A stretch of DNA of 64,000 nt from Anseongella ginsenosidimutans (GTDB lineage: Bacteria > Bacteroidota > Bacteroidia > Sphingobacteriales > Sphingobacteriaceae), in contig NZ_CP042432.1 in the NCBI RefSeq assembly GCF_008033235.1, positions 372,001 to 436,000 of the forward strand, read 5' to 3'. This document shows, one piece after another, positions 22,617 to 56,431 of the stretch. Position 1 is the first letter of the stretch; each line of letters starts with the position of its first letter. The notes under the pieces were generated by a model that ran no database searches, was not told where the DNA came from, and was given only the letters and a program-made list of their open reading frames with translations. Both the position numbers and the translations under genes were made by a program.

Positions 22617-22626
22617 GACTTTTTCA

Positions 22627-22706
22627 GGTTTAAAGTTCAAGGTTTAAAGTTTAAAGTTCAAGGTTTAAAGTTCAAGGTTTAAAGTTTTTGGTTTTTGGTT
22701 TTTGGT
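22627..22706. repeat. Short tandem repeats after serS
   Basis: About four copies of a 14-nt unit GGTTTAAAGTTCAA, with some partial copies, are followed by three copies of a TTTTTGG-type unit. The tract is non-coding and lies directly before the terminator. Repeats of this composition occur between genes in several Bacteroidota genomes; a replication-slippage origin is likely. Confidence 0.75.
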
Positions 22707-31741: not shown

Positions 31742-32817
31742 TCATTCCTTCAACCTGTTCACAGGTACGGGTTCACTGTCAGCATTCCTTTCCTTTAACT
31801 TTTCAAAAAAACGAAGCGTCCTTTTCTTAAGAAACTTGTAGCCGATTAGCTTTTTTATGTAAAGCTTTAAAATAATATATATCGTATTTAGATTTCTACT
31901 CATTTTAAAAGCGGCCTTGGCCTGCAACAGGGCCGCATGGGTGGTCCCGTACTCATTATATAACTGATGAGATTTGTGAGCGATATAAATTGATTTATAT
32001 TTTCTCGCTGATCTTTTATATGACTTCCTTTTTTCCGGCGGAAGATAATGCTGAATGATATCGATCGCCTTATAGATATCCAGAATGTTCTGTCCGGATA
32101 AAAACGAACGGGTGGTAATGTTATTTGTATGGTACCTGTACCGGGCAAGCCGCTCGGGGAATAGGCCACCGGGTAATGAGCCGCGATCCGTACCCACATT
32201 TCCCAGTCTTCGTTAAAATGAAAGGCAAAAAATCCCCCCAGGTGTTCGTATACCAGTCGTTTTACGACGATGGCGGGAGGCTGAAGACGCTGGCGGCGGG
32301 CGATGGTACTCAACCAGTCGCTGAGGACGCCCGGCTTGTCCATCAGGCTTTGCCGGCTATATACTTGATTTCCGCATTCATCAATCACGATATGGCTGGT
32401 AAATGCGGCGCCCACCTGTGGATGCGCGTCAAAAAGCGCCCCGGTTACGCGGTAAAAACCAGGCAGCACAGCATCGTCACCATGCAATAAATGGACTAAA
32501 TGCCCTTTGGAACGGTTCAGGCAGGTCTCAAAATTCCGGAGACTGCCGCGATTATATGGCTGCCGATAATACCCAACGCGGCCTTTCCCTACTCTGGCGA
32601 CCAATGCGCGAACATCCCCGTCCGTACTATGATCATCCACAACTTCGATCTGCATGATTTCCGGACCGGGGTCCTGGATGAGTACGCTTTCGAGAGCGGT
32701 TTGAAGATACCCGATGCAATTATATGCGGGGATCATCACGGACCAACGGGGACGGCTTTCGCAATCTGTTACCGCTTTAATGATGGGTGGGGTTTGTGGA
32801 GTACGGTCTTCGTTCAT
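31742..32817 (-). CDS. Family 2 glycosyltransferase, frameshifted; paralogue of the preceding gene's C-terminal half
   Basis: GT-A fold glycosyltransferase. The first part (32817 to about 32160) carries RPRWSVMIPAYNCIGYL, VVDDHSTDG and HGDD. The C-terminal part continues in another frame as ERLARYRYHTNNITTRSFLSGQ to the stop at 31742. Comparison with the paralogous half of the gene at 32777-34891 shows continuity across the break if one base is added at the C/G run 32156-32159, giving 358 aa. It is either a base-call error or a recent inactivation. It overlaps the preceding gene by 41 nt and ends the operon. Confidence 0.8.
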
Positions 32818-34891
32818 CGGTTTGAGGAAGTTTTCTCAACATACTATATATATACCTGCCCGCAAGCTTTAACATGCTGGCGGAGGTAAGGGCGTTCGGG
32901 CTCATTATCCAGGCCCGCCAGGCCTGGGTAAAGGCAGCTTTGGGGTTGCGGAACTCCGTAAAGATCCTGTGGGAAGTATTGGCGAAATACGCGGCGTAGT
33001 TTCTTCTGGCAGCCTTTTGCAGGTGGCGCTGCTGATCGCGGGGCAGGTACTGCCGGACAATGCGGATGACGGTGTGAATGTCGCGGATACTTTGTCCGGA
33101 CAGGAAGGAACGGCTGGTAATGTTATTCCTGTGGTAACGGTATTTGGCCAGGTGCCTGGGCGAATAGGCAACGGGGTAATGCGCGGCTATGCGTACCCAC
33201 ATTTCCCAGTCTTCGCCAAAATGAACGGCAAAAAAACTTCCCAGATGCTCGTACACCCTGCGTTTCACAACCATAGCGGGAGGCTGCACATATTGCCGGC
33301 TCGCAATCCGGGCCAGCCAGTCCGGCAACAGTCCGGCGCTGCCGGCAAGGCTCCGGTAATAAGAGAGTTCACCGCCCGCCTCGTTTATAAAGATGTGATT
33401 GGTAAACGCGGCGCCGGCTTGCGGATACCTGGCAAACAAATTCCCGATCTCGCCGTAAAACCCTGGCTTTACCAGGTCGTCTCCGTGAAGCAGGTGGATC
33501 CACTCACCCTTTGCACGGTTCAGGCAGGTTTCAAAATTGCGCAGGCTGCCGCGGTTATACGGTTGCCGGTGGTAGCCTACGCGTCCTTGTCCTAAACGCG
33601 TCACCAGGGCAGCGACATCGCCGTCAGTACTGTGGTCATCTATTACTTCGATCTGCATGATGTCCGGGCCGGGATCCTGCAGAAGTACGCTCTGCAAGGT
33701 TTCTTCCAAATACCCGATGCAGTTGAATACGGGGATCATGACCGACCAGCGGGGGCGGGCTTCCCCTGCCGGCACCGGAAGGATCTCCGGAGGGTTATGT
33801 GGTATCCGGGGTATTGCTTTTGCAGTTTCTGGTGGTGTTTCCGCTGCCTCGCGGATCTTGCCGTTCCGGTGAGCGGCCACCGATCCCGGCTGGGAAAATT
33901 TAGCGCTCAACAGGAGCGCGGCCTTTTTCCAGCAGCCCAGGCTGATGAGCAGGAAAATCAGTTCAGGCCCGGAAAGCCTGCCTGCAAAAAAAGAAAGCAT
34001 CCACTCTTTCTTGAAATAGGCGGCTTCCCGGATAGCGGCTTCATCGCGATTGACATTTTCCATTGCCAGGATGTACCCGGTAATATGATCCAGCTTACGA
34101 AAGCAACGGGCAATGGCCATTATACCTTCCTTCAGGACAGGCTCGCAGTCCAGCATCAGGCAGCGAACTTCATGATGGCTGAGGCGAAATCCTTCCCCGG
34201 TATAATACCGGATATTGCGCAGAACCTGTGCATGCTGCGCCGCTTCATATTCTGCTTTCCGCGTAACCCGGCTCAGGCTTTCGTCGGCAAGGCGGTAATC
34301 CAGCAGAACTTCCGGCAAGTTATGGATCTTGTAATTGCGTGCCATTTGCCACCACAAATTGTGGTCTTCGGCGTAGCGGGTACTGTATTTACCGCTGGCT
34401 GTTACGGCGCTGCGCCGGTACATAACAGTAGGATGGTAGATCCAGCAGGCGAAATTGAGGTTGTAATAATAGTATTGGGATTTCCATTTCTCCGTCCGTA
34501 AAGGAGTTTTATCGGCTGCAACGACCCTTGCCCAGGTTGAAAGCAGTGCTATTTCGGGGTGTTCCCGGAAAAAGGCCACCTGTTTTTCGAGCCGCTCCGG
34601 ATAGCTGATATCATCGGCGTCCATGCGGGCGATAAGCCCGGAAGAGGCCAGGCCGATCCCCTGGTTAAGTACGGCCGAGACGCCCCGGTTTTCTTCGTTC
34701 CTGATAAACCGGATCCGCGGATCGGTGTACGAACAGACGATCTCCGGGGTAGCGTCTGTGGACCCGTCGTCAATGATCAGGAATTCAAATTCTGTATATG
34801 TCTGCCCTAATATGCTCTCAATAGCCTCCCGTACATGCTTCCGGGCATTGTAGACAGGCATTAAAACGGTTACAGAATGACAAGCTTCCAT
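32777..34891 (-). CDS. Bidomain family 2 glycosyltransferase (two GT-A domains)
   Basis: A 704 aa protein with two different GT2 domains. Domain 1 (about residues 1-240) has VTVLMPVYNARKHV, IIDDGSTD and the metal-binding MDADD. A helical region rich in Trp/Leu follows, then a Pro/Glu linker (about 345-375). Domain 2 (about 378-600) has RPRWSVMIPVFNCIGYL, VIDDHSTDG and HGDD. Such proteins can add two sugars alternately, but acceptors are unknown here. Domain 2 is very similar to the next gene, so a duplication has occurred. It lies 12 nt after the preceding glycosyltransferase. Confidence 0.9.
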   Translation of the reverse strand: MEACHSVTVLMPVYNARKHVREAIESILGQTYTEFEFLIIDDGSTDATPEIVCSYTDPRIRFIRNEENRGVSAVLNQGIGLASSGLIARMDADDISYPERLEKQVAFFREHPEIALLSTWARVVAADKTPLRTEKWKSQYYYYNLNFACWIYHPTVMYRRSAVTASGKYSTRYAEDHNLWWQMARNYKIHNLPEVLLDYRLADESLSRVTRKAEYEAAQHAQVLRNIRYYTGEGFRLSHHEVRCLMLDCEPVLKEGIMAIARCFRKLDHITGYILAMENVNRDEAAIREAAYFKKEWMLSFFAGRLSGPELIFLLISLGCWKKAALLLSAKFSQPGSVAAHRNGKIREAAETPPETAKAIPRIPHNPPEILPVPAGEARPRWSVMIPVFNCIGYLEETLQSVLLQDPGPDIMQIEVIDDHSTDGDVAALVTRLGQGRVGYHRQPYNRGSLRNFETCLNRAKGEWIHLLHGDDLVKPGFYGEIGNLFARYPQAGAAFTNHIFINEAGGELSYYRSLAGSAGLLPDWLARIASRQYVQPPAMVVKRRVYEHLGSFFAVHFGEDWEMWVRIAAHYPVAYSPRHLAKYRYHRNNITSRSFLSGQSIRDIHTVIRIVRQYLPRDQQRHLQKAARRNYAAYFANTSHRIFTEFRNPKAAFTQAWRAWIMSPNALTSASMLKLAGRYIYSMLRKLPQTDERRPYSTNPTHH

Positions 34892-43876: not shown

Positions 43877-44842
43877 ATGCCAAAACGAAATTTGCTGAAG
43901 AAGATCCTTTTTCTATTTAAGGGCTCCGTTGCGGGCTTTGTGGATGACAAGGTAATGAAGCTCAGCGCGGCGCTCGCCTATTATACCGTTTTCTCCATCG
44001 GCCCCATGCTAATGGTCATCATTATGCTTTGCAGTATATTTTACGGCAAAGAGGCCATTGAGGGAACGATCTATAGTGAGATCAGCACGTTCGTGGGGAG
44101 TAAGGCAGCGCTGCAGATACAGGAGATCATCCGAAATGCGGCCATTTCAGATAATTCTACCCTGGCGGCGATCATAGGCATAGGAACATTGCTGTTCGGC
44201 GCGACCGGGGTGTTTGTAGAGATCCAGGACTCCATCAATTTCATTTGGGGGCTCAAGGCGAAGCCCCAAAAGGGCTGGCTAAAGATGCTGCTGAACCGGC
44301 TTCTGTCTTTTTCGCTGGTGATTGGCCTGGGCTTCGTACTCCTCGTGTCCCTGGTAGTGGACAGCCTCATCGAGTTTCTTAATGAAAAATTGCTTGCCAT
44401 GTTTCCGGAAGCAGCGGTGATCTGGGCCTATACGATCAATACCGCGCTTAACTTTGTCATCACGGCGCTGCTTTTCGGGATCATCTTTAAGGTACTGCCT
44501 GATGCCCGGATCAAATGGAAAGACGTGGGCGTAGGCGCCTGCTTTACCGCCCTGCTGTTTCTGCTTGGGAAGATGGCCATCGGGTATTATATGGGGCAGG
44601 TAGATACCGCCAGTTCTTACGGGGTAGCCGGTTCGCTGGTGGTGGTGCTGCTTTGGGTTTACTATTCGGCGGCTATCCTGTATTTCGGAGCAGAATTCAC
44701 CCTGCAATACGCTCAGGAATACGGAAAACATATTTACCCGGACACCTATGCCGTTTGGATTGAAAAGGTGGAGGTACAGCACAAGGAATCCCTGGAAAAA
44801 GTAAAGAAAGTCAGGGGCCCGGCGGCTAAATCATCACCGTAA
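43877..44842 (+). CDS. YihY/BrkB-family inner-membrane protein
   Basis: A 321 aa protein with six membrane helices and the YihY signature (KLSAALAYYTVFSIGPMLMVII; GATGVFVEIQDSINFIWG; SYGVAGSLVVVLLWVYYSAAILYFGAEFT). Older annotations name the family ribonuclease BN in error. A transport-like role is suggested but unproven. It ends with a charged cytoplasmic tail. Convergent with the repressor gene, overlapping it by 17 nt. Confidence 0.88.
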   Translation: MPKRNLLKKILFLFKGSVAGFVDDKVMKLSAALAYYTVFSIGPMLMVIIMLCSIFYGKEAIEGTIYSEISTFVGSKAALQIQEIIRNAAISDNSTLAAIIGIGTLLFGATGVFVEIQDSINFIWGLKAKPQKGWLKMLLNRLLSFSLVIGLGFVLLVSLVVDSLIEFLNEKLLAMFPEAAVIWAYTINTALNFVITALLFGIIFKVLPDARIKWKDVGVGACFTALLFLLGKMAIGYYMGQVDTASSYGVAGSLVVVLLWVYYSAAILYFGAEFTLQYAQEYGKHIYPDTYAVWIEKVEVQHKESLEKVKKVRGPAAKSSP

Positions 44843-45554
44843 TTTTTCCTTTCACCAGGTGAAGGGAAAGGATCGATCTTTTTTCAATAACGATATCCCC
44901 GCTGAAGGCAGGGTTCACGGCTCTCAGGATGACTTTCTTTTTATCCTTATGTTCTGCCAGAAGCCGGATCGTTTTAAGGCTGTTCGCATTCTCGTCCGTA
45001 ATTACCAGATACGCTTCTCCCCAGAGGATAATATCGGGGTTCTTAACTGCCTTAACGGCAATAATATCCCCATGAAGGTATCTAGGGTACATGCTCTCAC
45101 CATAATAAGGGAGGTAAGCGGTGCAATCATTGAAAGGCATAAAATCAATATAGTACTCCGGAGCTTCATTTACGAGGGAAAAGCCTTCCTCTCTGCCGTA
45201 TTCTCCCTCATGGAGCTTTGTACTGAAATAAGGGACTCCGGTACGGTTCTCTTCGCGGTTTCTTTCTTCTTCAGGGCTCCCCGCTCCTTCCTCGCTCTGC
45301 TGGCTGAGGCCGGCCTGAACTGCCTTCCCCGTCAGGGGCCCGCCGGGGAGAAACATGTCCCCTTCCCCGGTTTTCAGCCATTCAGGGTTAGCCTGGAAGG
45401 CAAGCTTCAGCAGATGAGTAACGCCGTCCACCGAATTACGCCCCCGTTCAATATCGGAAATGGACCCTTGCCGGCGGCCGATTGCCTTTGCCAGATCGCC
45501 CTGGGAAAGATTAAGTGCGCGGCGAAGGGCTTTCATTCGAAGATGTTCGTTCAT
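44826..45554 (-). CDS. LexA/CI-like repressor (XRE HTH + S24 peptidase-like domain)
   Basis: A 242 aa protein. Residues 5-65 are an HTH (LNLSQGDLAKAIGRRQGSISDIERGRNSVDG). A Glu/Arg-rich hinge follows, then an S24 domain with the nucleophile region YGESMYPRYLHGDIIAVK and a candidate general-base Lys in NSLKTIRL. No Ala-Gly or Cys-Gly autocleavage site is obvious in the hinge (EGAGSPEEE is one possibility), so it may bind a signal rather than cleave. A palindrome over its own promoter suggests autorepression. Phage-type and stress-type repressors share this layout. Confidence 0.85.
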   Translation of the reverse strand: MNEHLRMKALRRALNLSQGDLAKAIGRRQGSISDIERGRNSVDGVTHLLKLAFQANPEWLKTGEGDMFLPGGPLTGKAVQAGLSQQSEEGAGSPEEERNREENRTGVPYFSTKLHEGEYGREEGFSLVNEAPEYYIDFMPFNDCTAYLPYYGESMYPRYLHGDIIAVKAVKNPDIILWGEAYLVITDENANSLKTIRLLAEHKDKKKVILRAVNPAFSGDIVIEKRSILSLHLVKGKITVMI

Positions 45555-46030: not shown

Positions 46031-47932
46031 TCAGTTTTGTTCAGGCTCATTCTGCTGTTGCCTGTTCTCGCTCGCACGTTGTTGATTTTCCTTAGCGCGC
46101 TGCTGGTTTTCACGCACGCGTTGTTGGGTTTCAGCCGCGCGCTTCCGGCTCTCTTGAAGGTTCCGCTCTGCTTGTTCCTGATTCCGTTGTAGGTTTCGGT
46201 GGTATTCTTCCATTTTCCGCTCGTATTCTTCCAGCCGGGGTTTATTTTCCTTTTCCCAGTTTTTCATCTTAAGCTCAAATTCCTTCATTTTCGGCTCGTT
46301 GGCTTTGGCCCAGGCCTCCATCTGCTCTCCGTATTCTTCGCCCCATACTTCCATTCTCTTTCCAAACTCTTCCATAGAACGCTCGAATTCTTTCAAGCTC
46401 TCTTCGTCAAAATTGAACTCCGGGACCTTGCTGCTGTCGCCGCCCATCACAAAATTCATGGACCAGTTGGCGATCGCTGCGCCGAAATCTCCCATGCTTG
46501 CGCCGAATTGCGCCCAGCTTGCCGAATCAAGAACCGGTGGAGCCGGCGGCGTTGGTGGAACCGGAGCGGCGGACATGGACGGTAAGGGAGGAATAGCCGG
46601 AAGGGGAGGCATAGCAGGTACGGCAGGGGCAGCCGGTAAGGGCAGGGTATCCGATGCAAGGAACGGAAGTTCCCGGTTATTTTCCACGAAAACCGGGGAA
46701 GCATTGGCTGAAGGCGAGGGATAGGCTGAAGGGGAAGCCGCTGTGGTTCCGGTTTCAGCATTCACCTCCTCGCTATCCCCTCGCGGGTCGTTTGCGCGGC
46801 GGACTTCTACCGTATTTCCTCCTGATACAGGCAATGTATCGGCTCCGTCCGTTTGCCTTTGACCTGTTTCAATGGACAAAACCTGTGCATCTTCCTCTGT
46901 GGAAGAAGAAAATACGCGGCCTGAACCGGAAAGCAGTAAAAAGACGATCAATGCAGCTGCCAGCGTGCCGGCGGGAAGAAGGCCCGAAGGGCGGGCGGGT
47001 TCCTGGCCAAGCAAGCGCTTAACCCTTTCCAGGAGCGGTTGCTCGCGTTTTCCTGAAAAAGCCAGCAACAGCTTCCCGTTCTTTTCCGCCTGCATCCATT
47101 CTCCCATTTCAGAAAGAGCGAAAGCCAGCGTAACAGGATTGCATCCTTGCCGGGTGGCTACATCGTCACAGCATAACTCTCTTTCCCGGCGAACGACGCC
47201 ACTGATCCACCAGATGCCCGGGTGAAAGAAGTAAATGATCTCCGCCAGTGACTGAAGGAGATTTATCAGGAAGTCGCTTCGGCGGATATGGGCCAGTTCG
47301 TGGGCCAGAATAGCTTCTACCTGTTCCGCAGGAATAGCGGCCAGCATGCCGACCGGCACAAGGATCAGGGGTTTCAGGTGCCCGATCATCACGGGAGCGT
47401 TTACCATAGCTGACTCTGCGAGCCTGACAACCCGGCGTATCCCGTTCTCTTTTGCCATGCGGGCGAGCCTCAGCGTCCATTGCGCCGGCGCCGGAAGAGC
47501 GTGTGTTTTCAGTCGCTGCAGGAACCAGATACTTCCGGCAAAACGCAGGCTCAGCATCACCACACCTGCCATCCAGCCGGCCAGGAAAAGAAAGAGGTTA
47601 CGGTAAAAGAAAGCGGCAATGCTTTCAAAGTACCCCGGCGAGCCGGCTTCTTCCGTAAAGGCAGCCGGGAAGGCACCGGCGGCCCGGGCCGAAGCGCTGG
47701 TTCCAGAGAAATGCTCATAACAAACCAGGAAGGTACCGACAGACAAAACAGCGATGGCGGCTATCGCAGCCAGCGCTGCCCCGTAACGCAGTCTTGGAGA
47801 ATGCCTGCGCAACATGGCCAGGACCAGCATTAATAAAAGGGCAATTCCGGCAACCTGCCAGATAGCATGGACCAGCGTCCAGCCTAATGCCTGGATCATG
47901 TCCGATTGCAGCAATGATTCAATAGTTTTCAT
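46031..47932 (-). CDS. BlaR1-like M56 family membrane metallopeptidase with atypical C-terminus
   Basis: A 633 aa membrane zinc protease. Four membrane helices flank the M56 domain with HELAH at residues 211-215 and the downstream ERELCCDDVA glutamate ligand. Beyond a further membrane helix (about residue 320-340) the extracellular part is not a beta-lactam sensor. It is a Thr/Ser/Pro-rich stretch, a PLP-repeat region, and a long charged coiled coil ending in RAKENQQRASENRQQQ repeats. In this family the protease cleaves the partner repressor in response to an envelope signal; the signal here is unknown. It overlaps blaI by 4 nt. Confidence 0.88.
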   Translation of the reverse strand: MKTIESLLQSDMIQALGWTLVHAIWQVAGIALLLMLVLAMLRRHSPRLRYGAALAAIAAIAVLSVGTFLVCYEHFSGTSASARAAGAFPAAFTEEAGSPGYFESIAAFFYRNLFLFLAGWMAGVVMLSLRFAGSIWFLQRLKTHALPAPAQWTLRLARMAKENGIRRVVRLAESAMVNAPVMIGHLKPLILVPVGMLAAIPAEQVEAILAHELAHIRRSDFLINLLQSLAEIIYFFHPGIWWISGVVRRERELCCDDVATRQGCNPVTLAFALSEMGEWMQAEKNGKLLLAFSGKREQPLLERVKRLLGQEPARPSGLLPAGTLAAALIVFLLLSGSGRVFSSSTEEDAQVLSIETGQRQTDGADTLPVSGGNTVEVRRANDPRGDSEEVNAETGTTAASPSAYPSPSANASPVFVENNRELPFLASDTLPLPAAPAVPAMPPLPAIPPLPSMSAAPVPPTPPAPPVLDSASWAQFGASMGDFGAAIANWSMNFVMGGDSSKVPEFNFDEESLKEFERSMEEFGKRMEVWGEEYGEQMEAWAKANEPKMKEFELKMKNWEKENKPRLEEYERKMEEYHRNLQRNQEQAERNLQESRKRAAETQQRVRENQQRAKENQQRASENRQQQNEPEQN

Positions 47933-48321
47933 TTTTTTCCTCCTTCCAGTTGATCTAACAGCTGACGGATCTGCTTCAGCTCGTCTTTAGTTGTTTTTCC
48001 GTTTCCAAGGGCTTGCATAACCAGGCTGGCAGCCGAACCCCGGAAAGAAGTCTCCATAAATTTTTCCAGCAGGTGCTGCCGGGTCTCTTGTTCTTCCGCA
48101 AGCGGCGTATAAATATGTGTTCGCCCCTCTTCCCTCCTGCTCAGCATTTCTTTCGCATACATGATCTGGATGATCTTAAGGGTAGTGGTATATCCCGTTT
48201 CCCTTCGCTGGTTCACCAGGTCATTCACCTGGCGCACGGTAGCCGGGCCATGCTCCCATAATATTTCCAGTATTTCCAGCTCTGCTTCGGTTGGCTTTGG
48301 CCTGTGTTTCAGCTTGTTCAT
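47929..48321 (-). CDS. BlaI/MecI/CopY-family repressor
   Basis: A 130 aa winged-helix repressor: PTEAELEILEILWEHGPATVRQVNDLVNQRRETGYTTTLKIIQIMYAKEMLSRREEGRTHIYTPL is the DNA-binding half, and the C-terminal half dimerises (the cleavage site for the partner protease usually lies near residue 100). It is paired with the M56 protease gene directly downstream (ATGA overlap). Two palindromes flanking a consensus promoter upstream indicate autoregulation of the pair. Confidence 0.93.
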   Translation of the reverse strand: MNKLKHRPKPTEAELEILEILWEHGPATVRQVNDLVNQRRETGYTTTLKIIQIMYAKEMLSRREEGRTHIYTPLAEEQETRQHLLEKFMETSFRGSAASLVMQALGNGKTTKDELKQIRQLLDQLEGGKK

Positions 48322-49129: not shown

Positions 49130-49474
49130 TCACAATTCTTCCAGCCCGAAAATCTTCTCCATCAGCATCCATTTCTCGCCGGGTTTTGCCTGCGGAAGGG
49201 GTTGCTGGAACTGCCAGACAAATTGCTCCCATTCCTGTACTTCCGGATTATTGCGGTCCATTTCTTCCTTCCGGGCAAATGAAAAGCTTTCATTCACTTC
49301 CATGATCATGAACATCCGCGTTCCAAGCAGGTAAATATCCATTACCTCCACACCTGCATCCCGGATGCTTTTGATGATGGCGGGCCGCAGCCGGCGGTGC
49401 TGCCGCTTATACTCCGCTATCAGGGCCGGATCATCTTTCAAATCAAGCGTCAGGCAATAACGTCTCAGGCTCAT
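49130..49474 (-). CDS. L-rhamnose mutarotase family protein (probable L-fucose mutarotase role)
   Basis: A 114 aa protein of the RhaM/DUF718 family: RRYCLTLDLKDDPALIAEYKRQH, VEVMDIYLLGTRMFMIMEVNESF and a Trp-rich end (EWEQFVWQFQQPLPQAKPGEKW). It would interconvert sugar anomers. It overlaps fucP by ATGA, so L-fucose is the likely substrate here even though the family is named for rhamnose. It is the last gene of the operon. Confidence 0.85.
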   Translation of the reverse strand: MSLRRYCLTLDLKDDPALIAEYKRQHRRLRPAIIKSIRDAGVEVMDIYLLGTRMFMIMEVNESFSFARKEEMDRNNPEVQEWEQFVWQFQQPLPQAKPGEKWMLMEKIFGLEEL

Positions 49475-50736
49475 GCGGACACCTCCCTGATCTTATACCC
49501 GCTAAGGCCATAATACATGACCACCAGGAAGCAAAGCGCCGGAAGCCAGAAACAAGCCTGAATGCCTGCTGTGTCGCTTACTGCGCCGACAATAGGCGGA
49601 AGCGCCGCCCCGCCGACGATGGCCATTATAATGAACGATGATCCAAGCTTGGTATTCGTTCCCAGGTCTTTTACACCTAAGGCAAAAATGGTAGGGAACA
49701 TGATGGACATAAAGAAATTCAGGCCCAGAACGGCATACACAGCCACATACCCGCCGGCGTAAATTCCCACGAGGCAAAACAGGAAGGCGAAGAGCGCGAA
49801 TATCCAAAGTAAGCGCTGCTCCTTCACATAGCTCATAAGAAAGGTGCCAATAAAACGCCCGGCAACAAAGAGAAAGGTCCCTGCGGCAAGGAAGGTTCCC
49901 GAAGCGGCTTCCTTGGAAATCCCCGGAAGCAGGTGAGTCACGTAGTCAATGGTAATGCCCCAGATGCTGGCCTGGGCCCCTACGTAAAAAAACTGGGCGA
50001 TAATGCCCCTGGTCAGGTGTTTGTGCTGGAAAATAGAACGGTCAAATCTGAGCTTTCCGCTATTAGCCGGCTCCGGCATTTTTGTAAGCGAGAACAGGAA
50101 GGCCACGAAAAGTACCGCCACAGCGATACCGATATAGGGCACAATGACGGCATCGGCAGCTTTCTGTTTGCTGGCCTGGGTAAGCAGCTCGCCTTCGTTA
50201 CCCGCAAAGATCAGCTGGGAAGCGAGGACAGGCCCGACGATCAGCGCCACGCCGTTAAAAGACTGCGAAAGATTGAGCCGCTGGACGGCGGTCCGGGGGT
50301 TCCCGAGGATGGTCACGTAAGGATTGGCAGCGGTTTCAAGAAAAGCCAGCCCGCTGGCAATAATGAACAAAGCGCCCAGAAAAAAAGCAAATGTTAGCGT
50401 TTCCGCAGCCGGAATAAACAGCAGCGCCCCGGCGGCATAAAGCAGCAGGCCCAGGATAATGCCTCTTTTATACCCCTTCGTCTCCATAAAGAGGCCGGCG
50501 GGGATAGCGACCAGGAAATAACCAAAATAGAATGCGGTCTCCACCAGCAAGGCCATGGACCTGGAAATATTGAACAGTGGCTGAAAATGGGCGATCAGGG
50601 CGGAATTCAAAATATTCGCCAGCCCCCAGAGAAAAAATAAACTGGTTACCAGGATAAAGGGAATCAGGTATTTCTTTCCCATGCCATTGGACATTTCAGA
50701 TCCGGCAGGGTTAACGGGAGTAGCGGGTATTGCCAT
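49471..50736 (-). CDS. fucP: L-fucose:H+ symporter (FucP-like MFS permease)
   Basis: A 421 aa twelve-helix permease of the FucP group: FFLWGLANILNSALIAHFQPLF at the first helix, FYFGYFLVAIPAGLFMETKGYKRGI, FLETAANPYVTILG and LNLSQSFNGVALIVGP. Relatives carry fucose, glucose or galactose; the neighbours indicate fucose. It lies 10 nt after the lactonase gene. Confidence 0.88.
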   Translation of the reverse strand: MAIPATPVNPAGSEMSNGMGKKYLIPFILVTSLFFLWGLANILNSALIAHFQPLFNISRSMALLVETAFYFGYFLVAIPAGLFMETKGYKRGIILGLLLYAAGALLFIPAAETLTFAFFLGALFIIASGLAFLETAANPYVTILGNPRTAVQRLNLSQSFNGVALIVGPVLASQLIFAGNEGELLTQASKQKAADAVIVPYIGIAVAVLFVAFLFSLTKMPEPANSGKLRFDRSIFQHKHLTRGIIAQFFYVGAQASIWGITIDYVTHLLPGISKEAASGTFLAAGTFLFVAGRFIGTFLMSYVKEQRLLWIFALFAFLFCLVGIYAGGYVAVYAVLGLNFFMSIMFPTIFALGVKDLGTNTKLGSSFIIMAIVGGAALPPIVGAVSDTAGIQACFWLPALCFLVVMYYGLSGYKIREVSA

Positions 50737-50746
50737 TGATTAGGGT

Positions 50747-51577
50747 TTAGAGTTCCAGGTTATAAACATCTACTGCATTCTGATACCATACTTCATTTTC
50801 CTGCGCAAAGAGACGGTCTTGCAGGTAATGGGTAACCACCGCCTTCGTCCGGGCGTAATCCGCAGCCAGCAGGCAAACCGGCCAGTCAGAACCAAACAGC
50901 AGCCGGTAAGAACCAAAGGCGTCAAACACAACGTCCAGGTAAGGCTTAATATCTGCTTCCTTCCAGGACTTGTGATCGGCCTCGGTAACCAGCCCCGAAA
51001 CCTTGCAGTAAATATTGTCAAAACGAGCCAGGGCGCGGATTTTTTCATCCCAGGGATAAATGATCCCCTGCCTGATATAGGGTTTCGCTATGTGATCCAG
51101 TACAAACTTCTGATCCGGGAACTGCTTCACAAGCGCAATGGCATCGTCAAGTTGATTGGGATAGATGACGATATCATAGGTATAGCCGAACTTCTCCAGC
51201 TTTCCTATCCCATGAAGAAAAGCTTCCTGCAGCATAAAGCCTTCCGGCTCCGCCTGCACGATATGGCGGAAGCCCTTTAATTTTTTATACTGCGAAAAAT
51301 GGGCGAGCCGTTCTTCCACATCCGGAGCGAGCAGATCGATCCAGCCTACTACCCCTTTTATAAAATCATGCTCCTCAGCCAGCCTGAGCAGAAAACGCGT
51401 CTCCTCTTCGGACTGCGCGGCCTGCACGGCCACACAAGCATCAATCCCGTTCTCCCGGTAAACCGGCAGGAGGTCTTCGGGCAGAAAATCCTGCCGGATA
51501 GCCTGCATTTCGTCCGTTATCCAGCTGTCACGTACCGGGTCAAAATGCCAGAAGTGCTGATGGGAATCAATAATCAT
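50747..51577 (-). CDS. Amidohydrolase, probable L-fuconolactonase
   Basis: A 276 aa TIM-barrel hydrolase of the amidohydrolase 2 family: IDSHQHFWHFDP at the N-terminus (metal-binding HxH), FVLDHIAKPYI in the middle and LLFGSDWPVC near the end with the catalytic Asp. In the oxidative L-fucose route the enzyme opens L-fuconolactone to L-fuconate. Assignment rests on family and operon. Confidence 0.85.
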   Translation of the reverse strand: MIIDSHQHFWHFDPVRDSWITDEMQAIRQDFLPEDLLPVYRENGIDACVAVQAAQSEEETRFLLRLAEEHDFIKGVVGWIDLLAPDVEERLAHFSQYKKLKGFRHIVQAEPEGFMLQEAFLHGIGKLEKFGYTYDIVIYPNQLDDAIALVKQFPDQKFVLDHIAKPYIRQGIIYPWDEKIRALARFDNIYCKVSGLVTEADHKSWKEADIKPYLDVVFDAFGSYRLLFGSDWPVCLLAADYARTKAVVTHYLQDRLFAQENEVWYQNAVDVYNLEL

Positions 51578-51580
51578 TTT

Positions 51581-52459
51581 TTACACGGTCGTGGTTTTCC
51601 TTACTGCTTCATAAGCAACCGCTTCCTGGCGGGATTCTCCCAGTTTTTCAATGCCCAGCTCCACTACATCTCCCGGGCGGAGGTAACGCGGCGGGTTCAG
51701 GCCCAGGCCTACGCCTGAAGGTGTTCCGGTGGAGATCACGTCGCCGGGAAGCAGCGTCATAAAGCGGCTGATATAACTCACCAAAAAAGGGATTTTATAA
51801 ATAAGATCGGAAGTATTGGAGTCCTGCAGCTTTTCACCGTTCACTTTGAGCCAGAGATTGAGCTGATGGGGGTCTTCTACTTCATCTTTCGTTGCCAGGA
51901 AAGGCCCCAGCGGAGCAAAGGTGTCGGCGCTTTTTCCCTTTACCCATTGTCCGCCGCGTTCAATCTGGAATTCGCGCTCACTATAATCGTTAAGCAATGC
52001 GTAGCCCGCCACATAGTCCATGGCCTCCGCCTCTTCTACGTAAGCAGTTCTTTTTCCGATAATAACGGCCAGTTCCACTTCCCAGTCCGTTTTAACGGAG
52101 TCCTTAGGGATTATCAGGTTATCATTGGGCCCGCAAAGCGAAGAGGTAGCCTTAAAGAACAGAACCGGCTCCTTCGGAACATCCATGCCGCTTTCGGCCG
52201 CATGCTTTGCATAGTTGAGGCCTACGCAAATTATTTTGGAAGGATTTGCAATGCAGGGGCCTAAACGGACGTCGGCTGCCACATTCGGGCAGGCGGGCAT
52301 ATTTACCCGGAACCAGGCATCTAAACGCTGGATCCCATCGGTTTCGAGGAATTCCTGTGTATAATCTTCACCAAAAGCGCTTACGTCGTACCTTCTGTCT
52401 TCGTCGTCAATTAAACCGGGGCGTTCCTCTCCTGCGTCACCGAATCGAAATAATTTCAT
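51581..52459 (-). CDS. Fumarylacetoacetate hydrolase family, probable 2,4-diketo-3-deoxy-L-fuconate hydrolase
   Basis: A 292 aa enzyme with KIICVGLNYAKHAAESG, PVLFFKATSSLCGPND, DWEVELAVIIGKR (acidic metal ligands) and STGTPSGVGLG, the FAH-fold hallmarks. In bacteria that degrade L-fucose without phosphorylation, such an enzyme splits 2,4-diketo-3-deoxyfuconate to pyruvate and lactate. It is 3 nt from the lactonase gene. The exact substrate is inferred from the cluster. Confidence 0.85.
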   Translation of the reverse strand: MKLFRFGDAGEERPGLIDDEDRRYDVSAFGEDYTQEFLETDGIQRLDAWFRVNMPACPNVAADVRLGPCIANPSKIICVGLNYAKHAAESGMDVPKEPVLFFKATSSLCGPNDNLIIPKDSVKTDWEVELAVIIGKRTAYVEEAEAMDYVAGYALLNDYSEREFQIERGGQWVKGKSADTFAPLGPFLATKDEVEDPHQLNLWLKVNGEKLQDSNTSDLIYKIPFLVSYISRFMTLLPGDVISTGTPSGVGLGLNPPRYLRPGDVVELGIEKLGESRQEAVAYEAVRKTTTV

Positions 52460-52486: not shown

Positions 52487-53266
52487 TTAAGTATTCAGTT
52501 TTATAAATCCACCGTCAATGGGATAATCGCAGCCGGTAATGAAACCTGCCTCGGCAGAACACAGGAACAAGGCAAGCGCAGCTATTTCTTCCGGGCTCGC
52601 CATGCGTCCGATGGGCTGGGTCTTCGCCAGCTGCTCAAACATTTCCTTCTCCCTGCCCGGGTAATTCTTTGCCAAAAAACCGTCCACGAAGGGAGTGTGT
52701 ACCCGCCCCGGGGAAATACAATTGCAGCGGATGCCATCGCGAACATAATCTTTTGCTACCGAATACGTCATGGTCAGGACGGCCCCTTTGCTCATGGAAT
52801 AGGCAAACCGGTCAGGAATACCCACCGAGGCTGCCACCGAGGCCATATTCAGGATCACGCCGCCGCCATTCGCCTTCATACTGCCAATCAATGCATGCAT
52901 GCAATTGTATACTCCCTTTACATTCACCCGGAAAATCCGGTCAAAATCACCTTCGGAAGTCCCTTCCAGGTTGCCTACGTGTGCGATACCGGCATTATTC
53001 ACCAGGATATCCACCGGTTGCCTGTCCAGGATAGCCGCCACCTGCTGCTTCACCTGTTCCTGGTCGGAAACATCGCAGCTAACCGCGGTGGCATCACCTC
53101 CTTCGGCCTGAATTTCTTTTGCCGTCCATTGTGCCTGCTCTGCATTCATTTCAAAGATATAGACCCTGGCCCCCTTGCGGGCAAATAATTTGGAGATAGC
53201 GAGTCCAATCCCGCTGCCTCCTCCCGTTACAATGGCTGTTTTGTTATTTAAATTGAAATCGGACAT
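52487..53266 (-). CDS. Short-chain dehydrogenase, probable 2-keto-3-deoxy-L-fuconate dehydrogenase
   Basis: A 259 aa classical SDR with the cofactor motif TGGGSGIG, NNAG, a catalytic Ser in NMASVAASVG and the YSMSK Tyr-Lys pair, then ISPGRVHTPF. It would oxidise C4 of 2-keto-3-deoxy-L-fuconate with NAD. It could instead be the first dehydrogenase of the pathway. It is the first gene of the operon, 41 nt downstream of the 33-bp motif shared with the gene at 53706. Confidence 0.85.
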   Translation of the reverse strand: MSDFNLNNKTAIVTGGGSGIGLAISKLFARKGARVYIFEMNAEQAQWTAKEIQAEGGDATAVSCDVSDQEQVKQQVAAILDRQPVDILVNNAGIAHVGNLEGTSEGDFDRIFRVNVKGVYNCMHALIGSMKANGGGVILNMASVAASVGIPDRFAYSMSKGAVLTMTYSVAKDYVRDGIRCNCISPGRVHTPFVDGFLAKNYPGREKEMFEQLAKTQPIGRMASPEEIAALALFLCSAEAGFITGCDYPIDGGFIKLNT

Positions 53267-53307
53267 ATTGATTATAGCTATATTTTCACCTGAGGATCAT
53301 TCTGCTC

Positions 53308-53340
53308 CGATATTCGATAAAAATATTCAAACCAGCAAAT
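53308..53340 (-). promoter_or_regulatory. 33-bp conserved upstream motif, copy 1 (fucose operon)
   Basis: 31 of 33 bases are identical to 55294-55326. The core contains ATATTC twice at a 13-nt period, around GATAAAA. On the minus strand it carries a TTTG box, followed by a poor -7 match, as expected of an activator-dependent promoter. It begins 41 nt upstream of the SDR start. Confidence 0.75.
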
Positions 53341-53438
53341 ACGCCAGAAAAATGCCGGTTCTAAGCATGGAAAAAACCCGCAAAATGACTATCTTTAAGC
53401 ATTTCATCATAATTAGCGGATAATTAAACACCAGCGCC

Positions 53439-53687
53439 ATGAACCGAATTTCTATACTGCAAGCAGCCTGTCTTTTGATTCTTTCTTCCTGTAACCCGGC
53501 CCAGGAACAGCGAACGCAGGAAACAGCCGATTCCCTTCAACGTGAAATGGAACAGGAAATGGATACGGCAACCCAGAAGATCGATAGCCTGGGGGACACC
53601 CTTAAAGATGCTACTAACGAATTCCTGGACGAAGCAGGAAAAACGCTTGAGAAAGCCGGGGAAAAGCTAAAAGAAGCGGGTAATTAA
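53439..53687 (+). CDS. Small helical lipoprotein
   Basis: An 82 aa protein with signal and lipobox (LLILSSC), then a fully charged amphipathic helix (DSLQREMEQEMDTATQKIDSL ... EAGKTLEKAGEKLKEAG) like LEA-type or YtxH-type repeats. The mature form is probably a short envelope-anchored coiled coil. Function unknown. It lies between two minus-strand units and is convergent with the propeller gene. Confidence 0.7.
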   Translation: MNRISILQAACLLILSSCNPAQEQRTQETADSLQREMEQEMDTATQKIDSLGDTLKDATNEFLDEAGKTLEKAGEKLKEAGN

Positions 53688-53705
53688 CCGCTTTCTTATA
53701 TTGCA

Positions 53706-55262
53706 TTAATGACCGTAATATAAATAGATGGCTCCATAAGTCCAGTTGGGCCCTTCAACACCCGGGTAATTATACCTGTCCATCATCAAAGCCACGTACC
53801 TGACCGGGTACCCGTCCGGGAGCTGGACCACATTGGGCCATATCCGTGTTCCTGCGTGTTCATCCCAGGGCGGCAAATCCATTTTCAGCGTACCCACCTC
53901 TTTTAAATCCGGGTAGGAGTAAATATAGACTTCCCGCTCACTGCTTCCGGAAAAGCAAAAAAACCTGCCGTCAATTTTCTGAATGGAGGTACCGGTGGCA
54001 TCCCGCGTACCCGGGCCGGCAATCTGGCTGTAGTCCCCGTTCCATTTTGCGGACTCAAGCATAATGCATTTAAATCCCGATATGTTCTCGCATGCCAGCA
54101 TCCGCCATTTATCCACGGCTTCATCATAAATAATGTGCGGGTCTTCAATATTCCCGACGATTCCCATGGGTGCCGCCTTCATTACTGAAAAGCCAAACCT
54201 TGGGTCTTTATCGCTCAAAACTGCCAGCAGCTGCTTTTTTTCGGTATCCTTATTCGCAAATGCACTGAATCCGGTGGTTATTCCTTTCCAGCTTTGGGAG
54301 TTCCTGTCATAAAAAATATGAGAGGCGACTTCATTTCGTAGCAAGCCGTCATTGCGGTCGAATACGATAATGCCTTCCAGCCTGAGGTCGAATACACCCG
54401 GGTTAAGGCTGAATACCCCCTGGACAGGATGCGGCAATCCTCTTCCGCGAATAGTCATGGTGTACCAAATCCTCCCCTGGTCCAGCAAGGGCTCACCGTT
54501 CTCATAAGTGATCGCCCGTATATCGGCCAGCCCTATGCCGGTTGTAAGCGCTGATTCAATCCTGCTTATCTCCACCTTTCCGGACTTCAGCGCTAAATGC
54601 AGCTGAGACTGGAATGATCGTATATGTTTTATCTCCCTTAAATCAAGGTATTGATTGAATTCACCCTGGCCGATCACCTGCGGCAAACCTTCGTCCTTTA
54701 CATAGACGCTTAATCCGCTGCCCAACATCTGAACGATAAGCTGGTTTCCTATCTTCAGATCTTTATCAGCGTTTTTAGCAATGGACCCGCTGAAAACCGT
54801 TGCGCCGCCGGACTTCACGGTCAGGCTCACATCTTTAACCGTATCTTCTATAAAGGCTACGGAAACGATAAATTGCTGCCGGCGCCCTGCATCGGAAAAT
54901 TCAAACCCTATTTCGCCTTCCCCCGTTATTGCTGAAATATCAATAAAATACGTGGAAAACGGATTAAACCCGCCGAACCAAATGCTTGTTTGGGTTTCTT
55001 TTTCCGACTGAATAACCAGCTTTTCATTGCGGACAGCGACCCCGGCCTTTTCAGGAAAATGATGCCCGACAGGATACATGGATGGCAACCCGACGATCTC
55101 CTTTGGGTTCAAACTTGCCAGGGAGATGGATTGAGCCGGGTCAAAGATCAGCCGTCTGACACTCTGTCGTACGAATTGGATCTCATCCGGGTTTGTTTGG
55201 GAAAACACTTTACCGGCATCAAAAAAGAGGATCGCCGGGAGCAGAAGATAGTGAAGTTTCAT
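53706..55262 (-). CDS. Secreted beta-propeller-like protein, possible glycoside hydrolase, co-regulated with fucose operon
   Basis: About 518 aa with a signal peptide (LLLPAILFFDAGKVFSQ). The N-terminal half (residues about 60-270) looks like a beta-sandwich (GEIGFEFSDAGRRQQFIVSVAF). The C-terminal half has propeller-type strands, as in GH43/GH32-like enzymes: GRIWYTMTIRGRG, ASHIFYDRNSQSWKGITTGFS, EDPHIIYDEAVDKWRMLACE, KIDGRFFCFSGSSE. I cannot assign a family or the catalytic residues with confidence. The frame extends upstream to 55415, but ATG 55262 fits the signal peptide. It shares a 33-bp upstream motif with the fucose operon, so it may release or sense fucosylated glycans. Confidence 0.65.
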   Translation of the reverse strand: MKLHYLLLPAILFFDAGKVFSQTNPDEIQFVRQSVRRLIFDPAQSISLASLNPKEIVGLPSMYPVGHHFPEKAGVAVRNEKLVIQSEKETQTSIWFGGFNPFSTYFIDISAITGEGEIGFEFSDAGRRQQFIVSVAFIEDTVKDVSLTVKSGGATVFSGSIAKNADKDLKIGNQLIVQMLGSGLSVYVKDEGLPQVIGQGEFNQYLDLREIKHIRSFQSQLHLALKSGKVEISRIESALTTGIGLADIRAITYENGEPLLDQGRIWYTMTIRGRGLPHPVQGVFSLNPGVFDLRLEGIIVFDRNDGLLRNEVASHIFYDRNSQSWKGITTGFSAFANKDTEKKQLLAVLSDKDPRFGFSVMKAAPMGIVGNIEDPHIIYDEAVDKWRMLACENISGFKCIMLESAKWNGDYSQIAGPGTRDATGTSIQKIDGRFFCFSGSSEREVYIYSYPDLKEVGTLKMDLPPWDEHAGTRIWPNVVQLPDGYPVRYVALMMDRYNYPGVEGPNWTYGAIYLYYGH

Positions 55263-55293
55263 GTAAAGGCTGGTTCGGGTATATTTATACCTT

Positions 55294-55326
55294 CGATATT
55301 CGATAAAAATATTTAAACCGGCAAAT
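55294..55326 (-). promoter_or_regulatory. 33-bp conserved upstream motif, copy 2 (propeller gene)
   Basis: Identical to copy 1 at 31 of 33 positions, in the same orientation, and 31 nt upstream of the ATG at 55262. The 10-nt difference in distance from copy 1 equals about one helical turn, so both sites face the start on the same side of the DNA. Confidence 0.75.
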
Positions 55327-55372
55327 TTCCGACGGGAATACCGCTTTAGTGATCGAACATTCGTGCGGTGAA

Positions 55373-56431
55373 TCAGGGATTTCCCTGCGTGGACCCTTTC
55401 TCCAGGCTCCACCACGCCGCCGACGGGTAATTGCCGCCAATCACTACCGGTTCCCCGATTTTGGGAGTAGCTACTTTTACGTTCATTTCATTTGCCTCTT
55501 TCACCAGGCGGATAACAGGGTCGTCCCAGGCATGGAGCGAGAGAGAAAACCGGCCCCAATGCACGGGCAGCAGCGCCTCGCCTTTCAAGTCAATGGCAGC
55601 CCGGACGGTTTCTTCCGGCATCATATGGATAAGCGGCCATTGAGGATTATACTGCCCGTTCTCCAGGATCACCATGTCAAAGGGGCCGTATTTCCGGCCT
55701 ATTTCCGCGAAATGTTTCCCGTATCCCGAATCTCCGCCCAGGTACAAGCGGCAGTCAGCGGTTTCCAATACGTAGGACGCCCACAACGTTTTATTCCGGA
55801 TAAAGCCTCTTCCCGAAAAATGCCTTGCCGGAGTGGCCGTCAGTTTCATTTCTCCCGGCAGTTCTGCAGACTCTTCCCAATCCAGTTCCGTGATCCGGCT
55901 TTCTTCAATTCCCCAAAACGCTAAATGCGACCCAACCCCCAATGGAGTATAAAAAGCCTTTACCGTTGAGCGAAGCTGCCGGATCGTCCGGTGATCAAGG
56001 TGATCGTAATGGTCATGGGTAAGGATAACGATGTCAATACGCGGCAGATCCTTCAGGGGAATATCGGTGGAAAAAGCGTATGCCTTCGGCCCCAGGTAAG
56101 AAGAAAAAGAGGCACGCTGGCTAAAGACCGGATCTACCAGCAGGTTTACGCTTTCGGTTTGAATTAGATAGGAGGAATGCCCGAACCAGGTGACAACAGG
56201 TTTGCCGCTAACCGCCGGGAAGCCGCTGGACACTACAGGAAGGCTTTCGGCCGGCGACCTCCGCGAATCTTTCCGCATCGACTCCCGGATCATCCGCAAA
56301 TAAGAAGCGTCTTCGCTAAGCATGGAGGTAACTTCCTGGTTCCGGAAGGCATTCTCCCGGTAATTCGGCGAGGCCTTTATACGCTCCAGCCGGTTACCGG
56401 CGGGCAATTTTCCTAATGAACGCAATCGCAT
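55373..56431 (-). CDS. Metallo-beta-lactamase fold hydrolase (UlaG/NAPE-PLD-like)
   Basis: A 352 aa protein with the MBL zinc motif THDHYDHLDH, GHSSYLIQTESVNLLVDPVFS, and downstream metal ligands in ATPARHFSGRG, GGDSGYGKHF and PVHWGRFSLSLH. The layout matches the group of UlaG and N-acyl-phosphatidylethanolamine phospholipase D-like enzymes. No signal peptide. It is upstream of the propeller gene on the same strand but separated by that gene's own motif. Substrate unknown. Confidence 0.85.
   Translation of the reverse strand: MRLRSLGKLPAGNRLERIKASPNYRENAFRNQEVTSMLSEDASYLRMIRESMRKDSRRSPAESLPVVSSGFPAVSGKPVVTWFGHSSYLIQTESVNLLVDPVFSQRASFSSYLGPKAYAFSTDIPLKDLPRIDIVILTHDHYDHLDHRTIRQLRSTVKAFYTPLGVGSHLAFWGIEESRITELDWEESAELPGEMKLTATPARHFSGRGFIRNKTLWASYVLETADCRLYLGGDSGYGKHFAEIGRKYGPFDMVILENGQYNPQWPLIHMMPEETVRAAIDLKGEALLPVHWGRFSLSLHAWDDPVIRLVKEANEMNVKVATPKIGEPVVIGGNYPSAAWWSLEKGSTQGNP

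Follow-up and report, generated by a model that had tools for sequence, protein, structure and literature searches.

Why is one 33-bp block carried almost unchanged in front of two quite different genes, one opening a sugar breakdown operon and the other encoding a secreted protein? The two copies (A and B) lie in a stretch of 64,000 nucleotides of the Anseongella ginsenosidimutans genome, referred to here as the window. Direct reading confirmed the initial annotation: 31 of the 33 bases are identical, the orientation is the same, and the block lies 41 nt upstream of one minus-strand start (SDR gene, ATG at 53266) and 31 nt upstream of another (secreted protein, ATG at 55262). Relative to the start codon, the two copies are placed on the same side, within the promoter region of their gene, and they form direct repeats 1986 bp apart (Table 1). 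A longer reading of the secreted-protein gene from a GTG at 55415 would put the block inside coding sequence; however, ATG 55262 opens a signal-peptide-like start (MKLHYLLLPAILFF) and is roughly where the alignment with most homologues sets in, and we therefore treat the block as intergenic. Chance likeness of AT-rich promoters was ruled out, as the two upstream regions share 31 bases in their best ungapped 33-nt alignment, compared to a maximum of 23 in 1000 first-order Markov shuffles. In the whole window, ∼3e-7 pairs at 31 or more of 33 are expected.

Table 1. Features of the locus, with the evidence for each assignment
Feature	Position	Strand	Sequence or basis
Copy A, full block	53308-53340	-	+ strand CGATATTCGATAAAAATATTCAAACCAGCAAAT; minus strand ATTTGCTGGTTTGAATATTTTTATCGAATATCG
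Copy B, full block	55294-55326	-	+ strand CGATATTCGATAAAAATATTTAAACCGGCAAAT; minus strand ATTTGCCGGTTTAAATATTTTTATCGAATATCG
Copy A, conserved core; putative fucose operon promoter/operator	53306..53327	-	TCCGATATTCGATAAAAATATT on +; kept in congener
Copy B, conserved core; putative secreted-protein gene promoter/operator	55292..55313	-	TTCGATATTCGATAAAAATATT
SDR dehydrogenase, probable L-2-keto-3-deoxyfuconate 4-dehydrogenase (FucF type), first gene of the operon	52487..53266	-	Pfam adh_short_C2
FAH-family hydrolase, probable 2,4-diketo-3-deoxy-L-fuconate hydrolase (FucG type)	51581..52459	-	Sub-cut-off match and gene order in relatives
Amidohydrolase, probable L-fucono-1,5-lactonase	50747..51577	-	NCBIfam FuconLaconase, 276.8 bits (cut-off 400 not reached); gene order in relatives
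FucP-type L-fucose:H+ symporter	49471..50736	-	TIGR00885, 375 bits, above curated cut-off
RhaM/FucU-type mutarotase	49130..49474	-	Pfam rhaM
Small divergent lipoprotein-like gene between the two units	53439..53687	+	Congener orthologue marks the same locus
Secreted protein, 518 residues, GH-like five-bladed propeller with inserted beta-sandwich	53706..55262	-	Predicted model

The block is not scattered over unrelated sites. A scan of the complete genome, a single contig of 4,322,684 bases, found the 33-mer, at up to 3 mismatches, only as copies A and B, which rules out a dispersed repeat or mobile element. An 18-bp core at up to 3 mismatches occurs 15 times (13 beyond A and B) compared to 13 for a reversed-pattern control, and the extra matches lie nearly all within ORFs. 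No match to the block was obtained in the viral contigs searched. An Rfam search of 52900-55900 gave no match to the known RNA families up to E=1, and a literature search found no published description of the site. Other 16-mer direct repeats in the window are limited to a short tandem repeat (22626-22690) and a near-identical pair (32189-33660) 1003 bp apart.

Further information came from the sole other genome of the genus (G001, hereafter the congener), which is incomplete (∼92% complete). There, the 22-bp core (TTCGATATTCGATAAAAATATT; L157:68-89) is preserved in front of the corresponding SDR start, on a contig that begins inside the SDR gene and continues with CTTCGATATTCGATAAAAATATTGAATTCAACAAAT, after which comes the small divergent gene's orthologue. 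The remainder of that intergenic region is unalignable and nearby coding DNA is 71–80% identical; at 71% per site, the probability of 22 preserved bases in a row is ∼5e-4. Since the core is intact where the surrounding intergenic DNA no longer aligns, we regard it as a phylogenetic footprint, based on one comparison of three copies from two species, in which the view of the congener stops inside the SDR gene and covers the fucose unit only. The distance from core to ATG varies, from ∼6 nt in the congener to ∼40 and ∼30 nt here.

In all three copies, ATTTG..G and AATATTTTTATCGAATATCG followed by RAG are constant on the transcribed strand. The exact 17-mer TATTCGATAAAAATATT is found only at these three places among 222 loci. 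The direct repeat ATATTC with a 13-nt period, reported in the initial annotation, is present in the fucose copy (A) but is not a conserved feature, since the second ATATTC has C as its sixth base in copy A, T in copy B (ATATTT) and G in the congener (ATATTG); copy B and the congener carry instead a TTCGATA tandem. An inverted repeat round the upstream half (AACCGGCA...TGCYGGTT) was also considered and rejected, being weak (7/8 and 6/8) and missing in the congener.

The core does not extend beyond the genus. Among 399 genomes of the family, it occurs at 0-1 mismatch only within the genus; outside it, three 2-mismatch matches were obtained, fewer than the reversed control gave, and all of them outside promoters: two inside ORFs (G042 and G392) and one just past the 3′ end of a gene (G185). 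In 100 relatives, a 23-mer matched at a level like that of the control. Conservation across Sphingobacteriaceae was therefore not found in either set, and the relatives' fuc loci examined are without the site. Preserved in the congener and absent beyond the genus, the site appears to be a genus-specific element.

The gene content of the first unit corresponds to L-fucose breakdown. Its SDR is 59–69% identical to the one that stands before FAH in the fuc operons of relatives, which typically run AraC (divergent), FucP, FucU, dehydratase, SDR, FAH, lactonase, SDR1. The remaining fucose steps are split over two other genome loci. An altronate-dehydratase-family protein encoded at 1793893-1795548 matches the relatives' operons; genes of the MR_MLE superfamily (L-fuconate dehydratase type) are also present in the genome, but it is the altronate-dehydratase-family protein that the relatives' operons match. 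A second fucose-related locus (L212:4900-9952, genome ∼2.9989-3.0040 Mb) carries genes for a mutarotase-like protein, lutB- and lutC-like proteins, a fucose-dehydrogenase-like SDR (60–72% identical to those of relatives), a lutA-like protein and, after these, an AraC regulator (3003079-3003930). The non-phosphorylating L-fucose route ends in pyruvate and L-lactate (PMC11199699), and LutABC at this locus would serve to oxidize the L-lactate. In these other fucose loci (L209, L212) the best core matches are 14–16/22, which is background level; a regulator common to all fucose genes is therefore disfavoured.

The product of the second unit has no family match in Pfam or NCBIfam, and its sequence gave only chance matches to the PDB. 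Its predicted model (mean pLDDT 90) matches the propeller glycoside hydrolases BT_0996 (5mt2), GH159, GH62, GH43 and GH117, with Z of 18–21 over ∼240–280 residues (top match: Z 21.0, rmsd 3.5, 269 residues). Invariant acids, candidates for a catalytic role, are D247, D292, E296, D302, D305, E311, D319, E341, D353, E373, D374, D380 and D495. Homologues 54–61% identical occur in many Bacteroidota. Their neighbourhoods (58 other loci) contain nothing conserved and no link to fucose, and the block was not found upstream of them. In several Chitinophagales (L067, L069, L074, L083, L094) the gene is preceded by a conserved series of genes for secreted, hydrolase-like proteins, a setting unlike the fucose one. 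The GH-like fold of the model would make the secreted protein a sensible partner for sugar uptake, and joint control of the two units is plausible.

The congener also informs on the history of the locus. There, the small divergent gene is directly followed by the orthologue of the 56529-57014 gene, and the secreted-protein and metallo-hydrolase genes are missing between these neighbours; a search of the congener genome (∼92% complete) for homologues of the secreted protein gave none. As the gene was found in 2 of 60 genomes searched (this one and a Parapedobacter genome) and absent at the sister's locus, its gain in this lineage is likelier than its loss in the sister, a judgement that involves two genomes only. 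The TTCGATA end of copy B is shared with the congener and the AAACCRGCAAAT end with copy A, which is what a copy derived from the fucose promoter of this lineage should look like. The fucose-operon copy would thus be the older and the secreted-protein copy the second.

What could read the block? No regulator gene adjoins either copy, as initially annotated, and this holds for the immediate neighbours. The nearest regulators are a BlaI/MecI-type repressor (47929-48321), past the far end of the operon, and an HTH_3/S24 protein (44826-45554). The former is paired with a BlaR1-type M56 peptidase (46031-48321), and ∼0.8 kb separates the pair from the operon's distal end. None of the LacI and GntR genes listed from the genome could be linked to the site. 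Among the AraC homologues of the genome, none is clearly orthologous to the fuc-linked ones (best 39–45% identical). In the relatives, an AraC gene is present in 17 of 37 fuc loci (a fragment in one of them), in many of them divergent beside fucP, and some relatives have an IclR-type gene in its place.

The explanation we favour, with a probability of roughly 0.64, is that the block is a genus-specific promoter/operator through which the two units would be switched together, as a two-member local regulon, by a putative trans-acting regulator. Such a DNA-binding protein would recognize the conserved core, composed of TATCGAATATCG and the adjoining AT-rich TATTTTTA; the RNA polymerase site and the start point probably overlap with this core. 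The SDR-FAH-lactonase-FucP-FucU operon and the secreted GH-like gene would respond together, the latter having joined the locus in this lineage, or been lost from the sister, and carrying the second copy. Protein binding, promoter overlap, co-expression and the order of events are what we infer from the DNA. Since A and B are otherwise unrelated outside the block, it can be argued that both copies are kept by selection. The dedicated regulator proposed in the initial annotation, joining sugar breakdown to an extracellular protein, is thereby retained in part: the conserved cis element and the GH-like fold are consistent with joint control, but the missing adjacent regulator and the siteless other fucose loci weaken the idea of a dedicated fucose regulator, though not that of shared control.

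How much of the block is simply promoter? The Bacteroidota -7 box is TAnnTTTG (PMC9723704), and a sigma-A promoter was searched for as this box with a TTG 17–23 nt upstream. Neither the block nor the DNA immediately below it contains an exact TAnnTTTG; TATTTTTA deviates by one base and has no TTG at 17–23 nt, and an alternative pairing, TTTG-N16-TATCGAAT, fits the -7 consensus poorly. With either pairing, the start point would fall within the conserved TATCGAATATCG or next to it, a placement that would fit a repressor site or a weak promoter needing an activator. Overlap with the start point is the usual place for a repressor. The block could instead be a strong or unusual core promoter, used by the main or an alternative sigma factor and copied once to the secreted-protein gene, with its conservation reflecting polymerase contacts only. 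Its position is indeed the one required of a promoter; read along the transcribed (minus) strand, it has ATTTG near the start, kept in the three copies, and the box that TATTTTTA nearly matches is enriched on the sense strand here, against a background from fetched stretches of the genome, by which the genome-wide promoter model was approximated. A class of sites recognized by a sigma factor should however recur, yet the core has two sites in 4.3 Mb; moreover, a -33/-7 pair would not require as many as 22 identical bases, and the kept TATCGAATATCG is located at the -7 position or past it. We therefore consider a promoter without further function unlikely. Some of the block may simply be promoter.

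Passive duplication is the least probable of the alternatives: DNA upstream of the operon would have been duplicated when the secreted-protein segment arrived, leaving a functionless second site not yet decayed. The direct-repeat arrangement is compatible with this, as are the absence of the secreted-protein and metallo-hydrolase genes from the congener and a weak similarity extending ∼10 bp past the block at unchanged spacing (the AATRCCGSTT likeness past the block is weak and missing in the congener). With flanks unrelated and the core identical, breakpoints would nevertheless be needed right at the conserved element, and copy B precedes its ATG at the distance and in the orientation normal for a promoter. 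Returning to the two-member regulon, its regulator could be a fucose-responsive AraC-type protein like those beside fucP in relatives. The frequency of AraC genes in the relatives' fuc loci points this way, as does the presence here of several homologues, one of them adjoining the fucose dehydrogenase and lutABC at ∼3.003 Mb. We find this special case distinctly doubtful, given that neither the ∼3.003-Mb locus, nor the dehydratase locus, nor the relatives' fuc loci carry the site, that some relatives have the IclR-type gene instead, and that the homologues here are so distant from the fuc-linked ones. A tentative possibility, to which we give somewhat more credit, is a remotely encoded regulator of undescribed type or specificity, reading a TTCGATA-tandem operator; it would link an extracellular sugar enzyme, newly gained and from an uncharacterized family, to fucose uptake, the gene having copied its neighbour's operator on arrival.

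The regulatory logic of the two-member regulon is ordinary, that of a small local switch of a known sort. If the units are indeed co-regulated, this would hint that a secreted family widespread in Bacteroidota and without a family model (58 loci) releases or handles fucose or a related sugar. The locus would in addition show, on a small and legible scale, how a gene can come under an established control circuit by bringing along a duplicate of the operator next door, and the sister genome retains the arrangement while lacking the added gene.

Comparison with known systems places the locus as follows. It resembles a Bacteroidota sigma-A promoter in its position before the ATG and in its ATTTG and TATTTTTA elements, and differs from it in having no exact -7 box, no rightly spaced -33 for it, conservation running past the -7 region and two genome sites only. 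The secreted protein shares the fold of BT_0996, GH159, GH62, GH43 and GH117 but is 7–13% identical to them, has a large inserted beta-sandwich and matches no family model. With route 3 (FucM-FucA-FucB-FucC-FucF-FucG; PMC11199699) the operon has in common FucF-, FucG- and FucB-type enzymes, in addition to the mutarotase and FucP; the fucose dehydrogenase and dehydratase are encoded at other loci of this genome. Sphingobacteriaceae fuc operons with an AraC gene divergent from fucP share family and pathway genes with the operon described here, which is split, reordered and without an AraC gene, whereas those relatives are without the site. Finally, the regulon of Bacteroides thetaiotaomicron FucR (GntR family), reconstructed as a single operon (PMC3878776), likewise has a dedicated site before a fucose uptake and breakdown operon. 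There, the route is phosphorylating (fucRIAKUP) and the regulator gene lies inside the operon, whereas here the route is non-phosphorylating, no regulator is adjacent and the site precedes two units.
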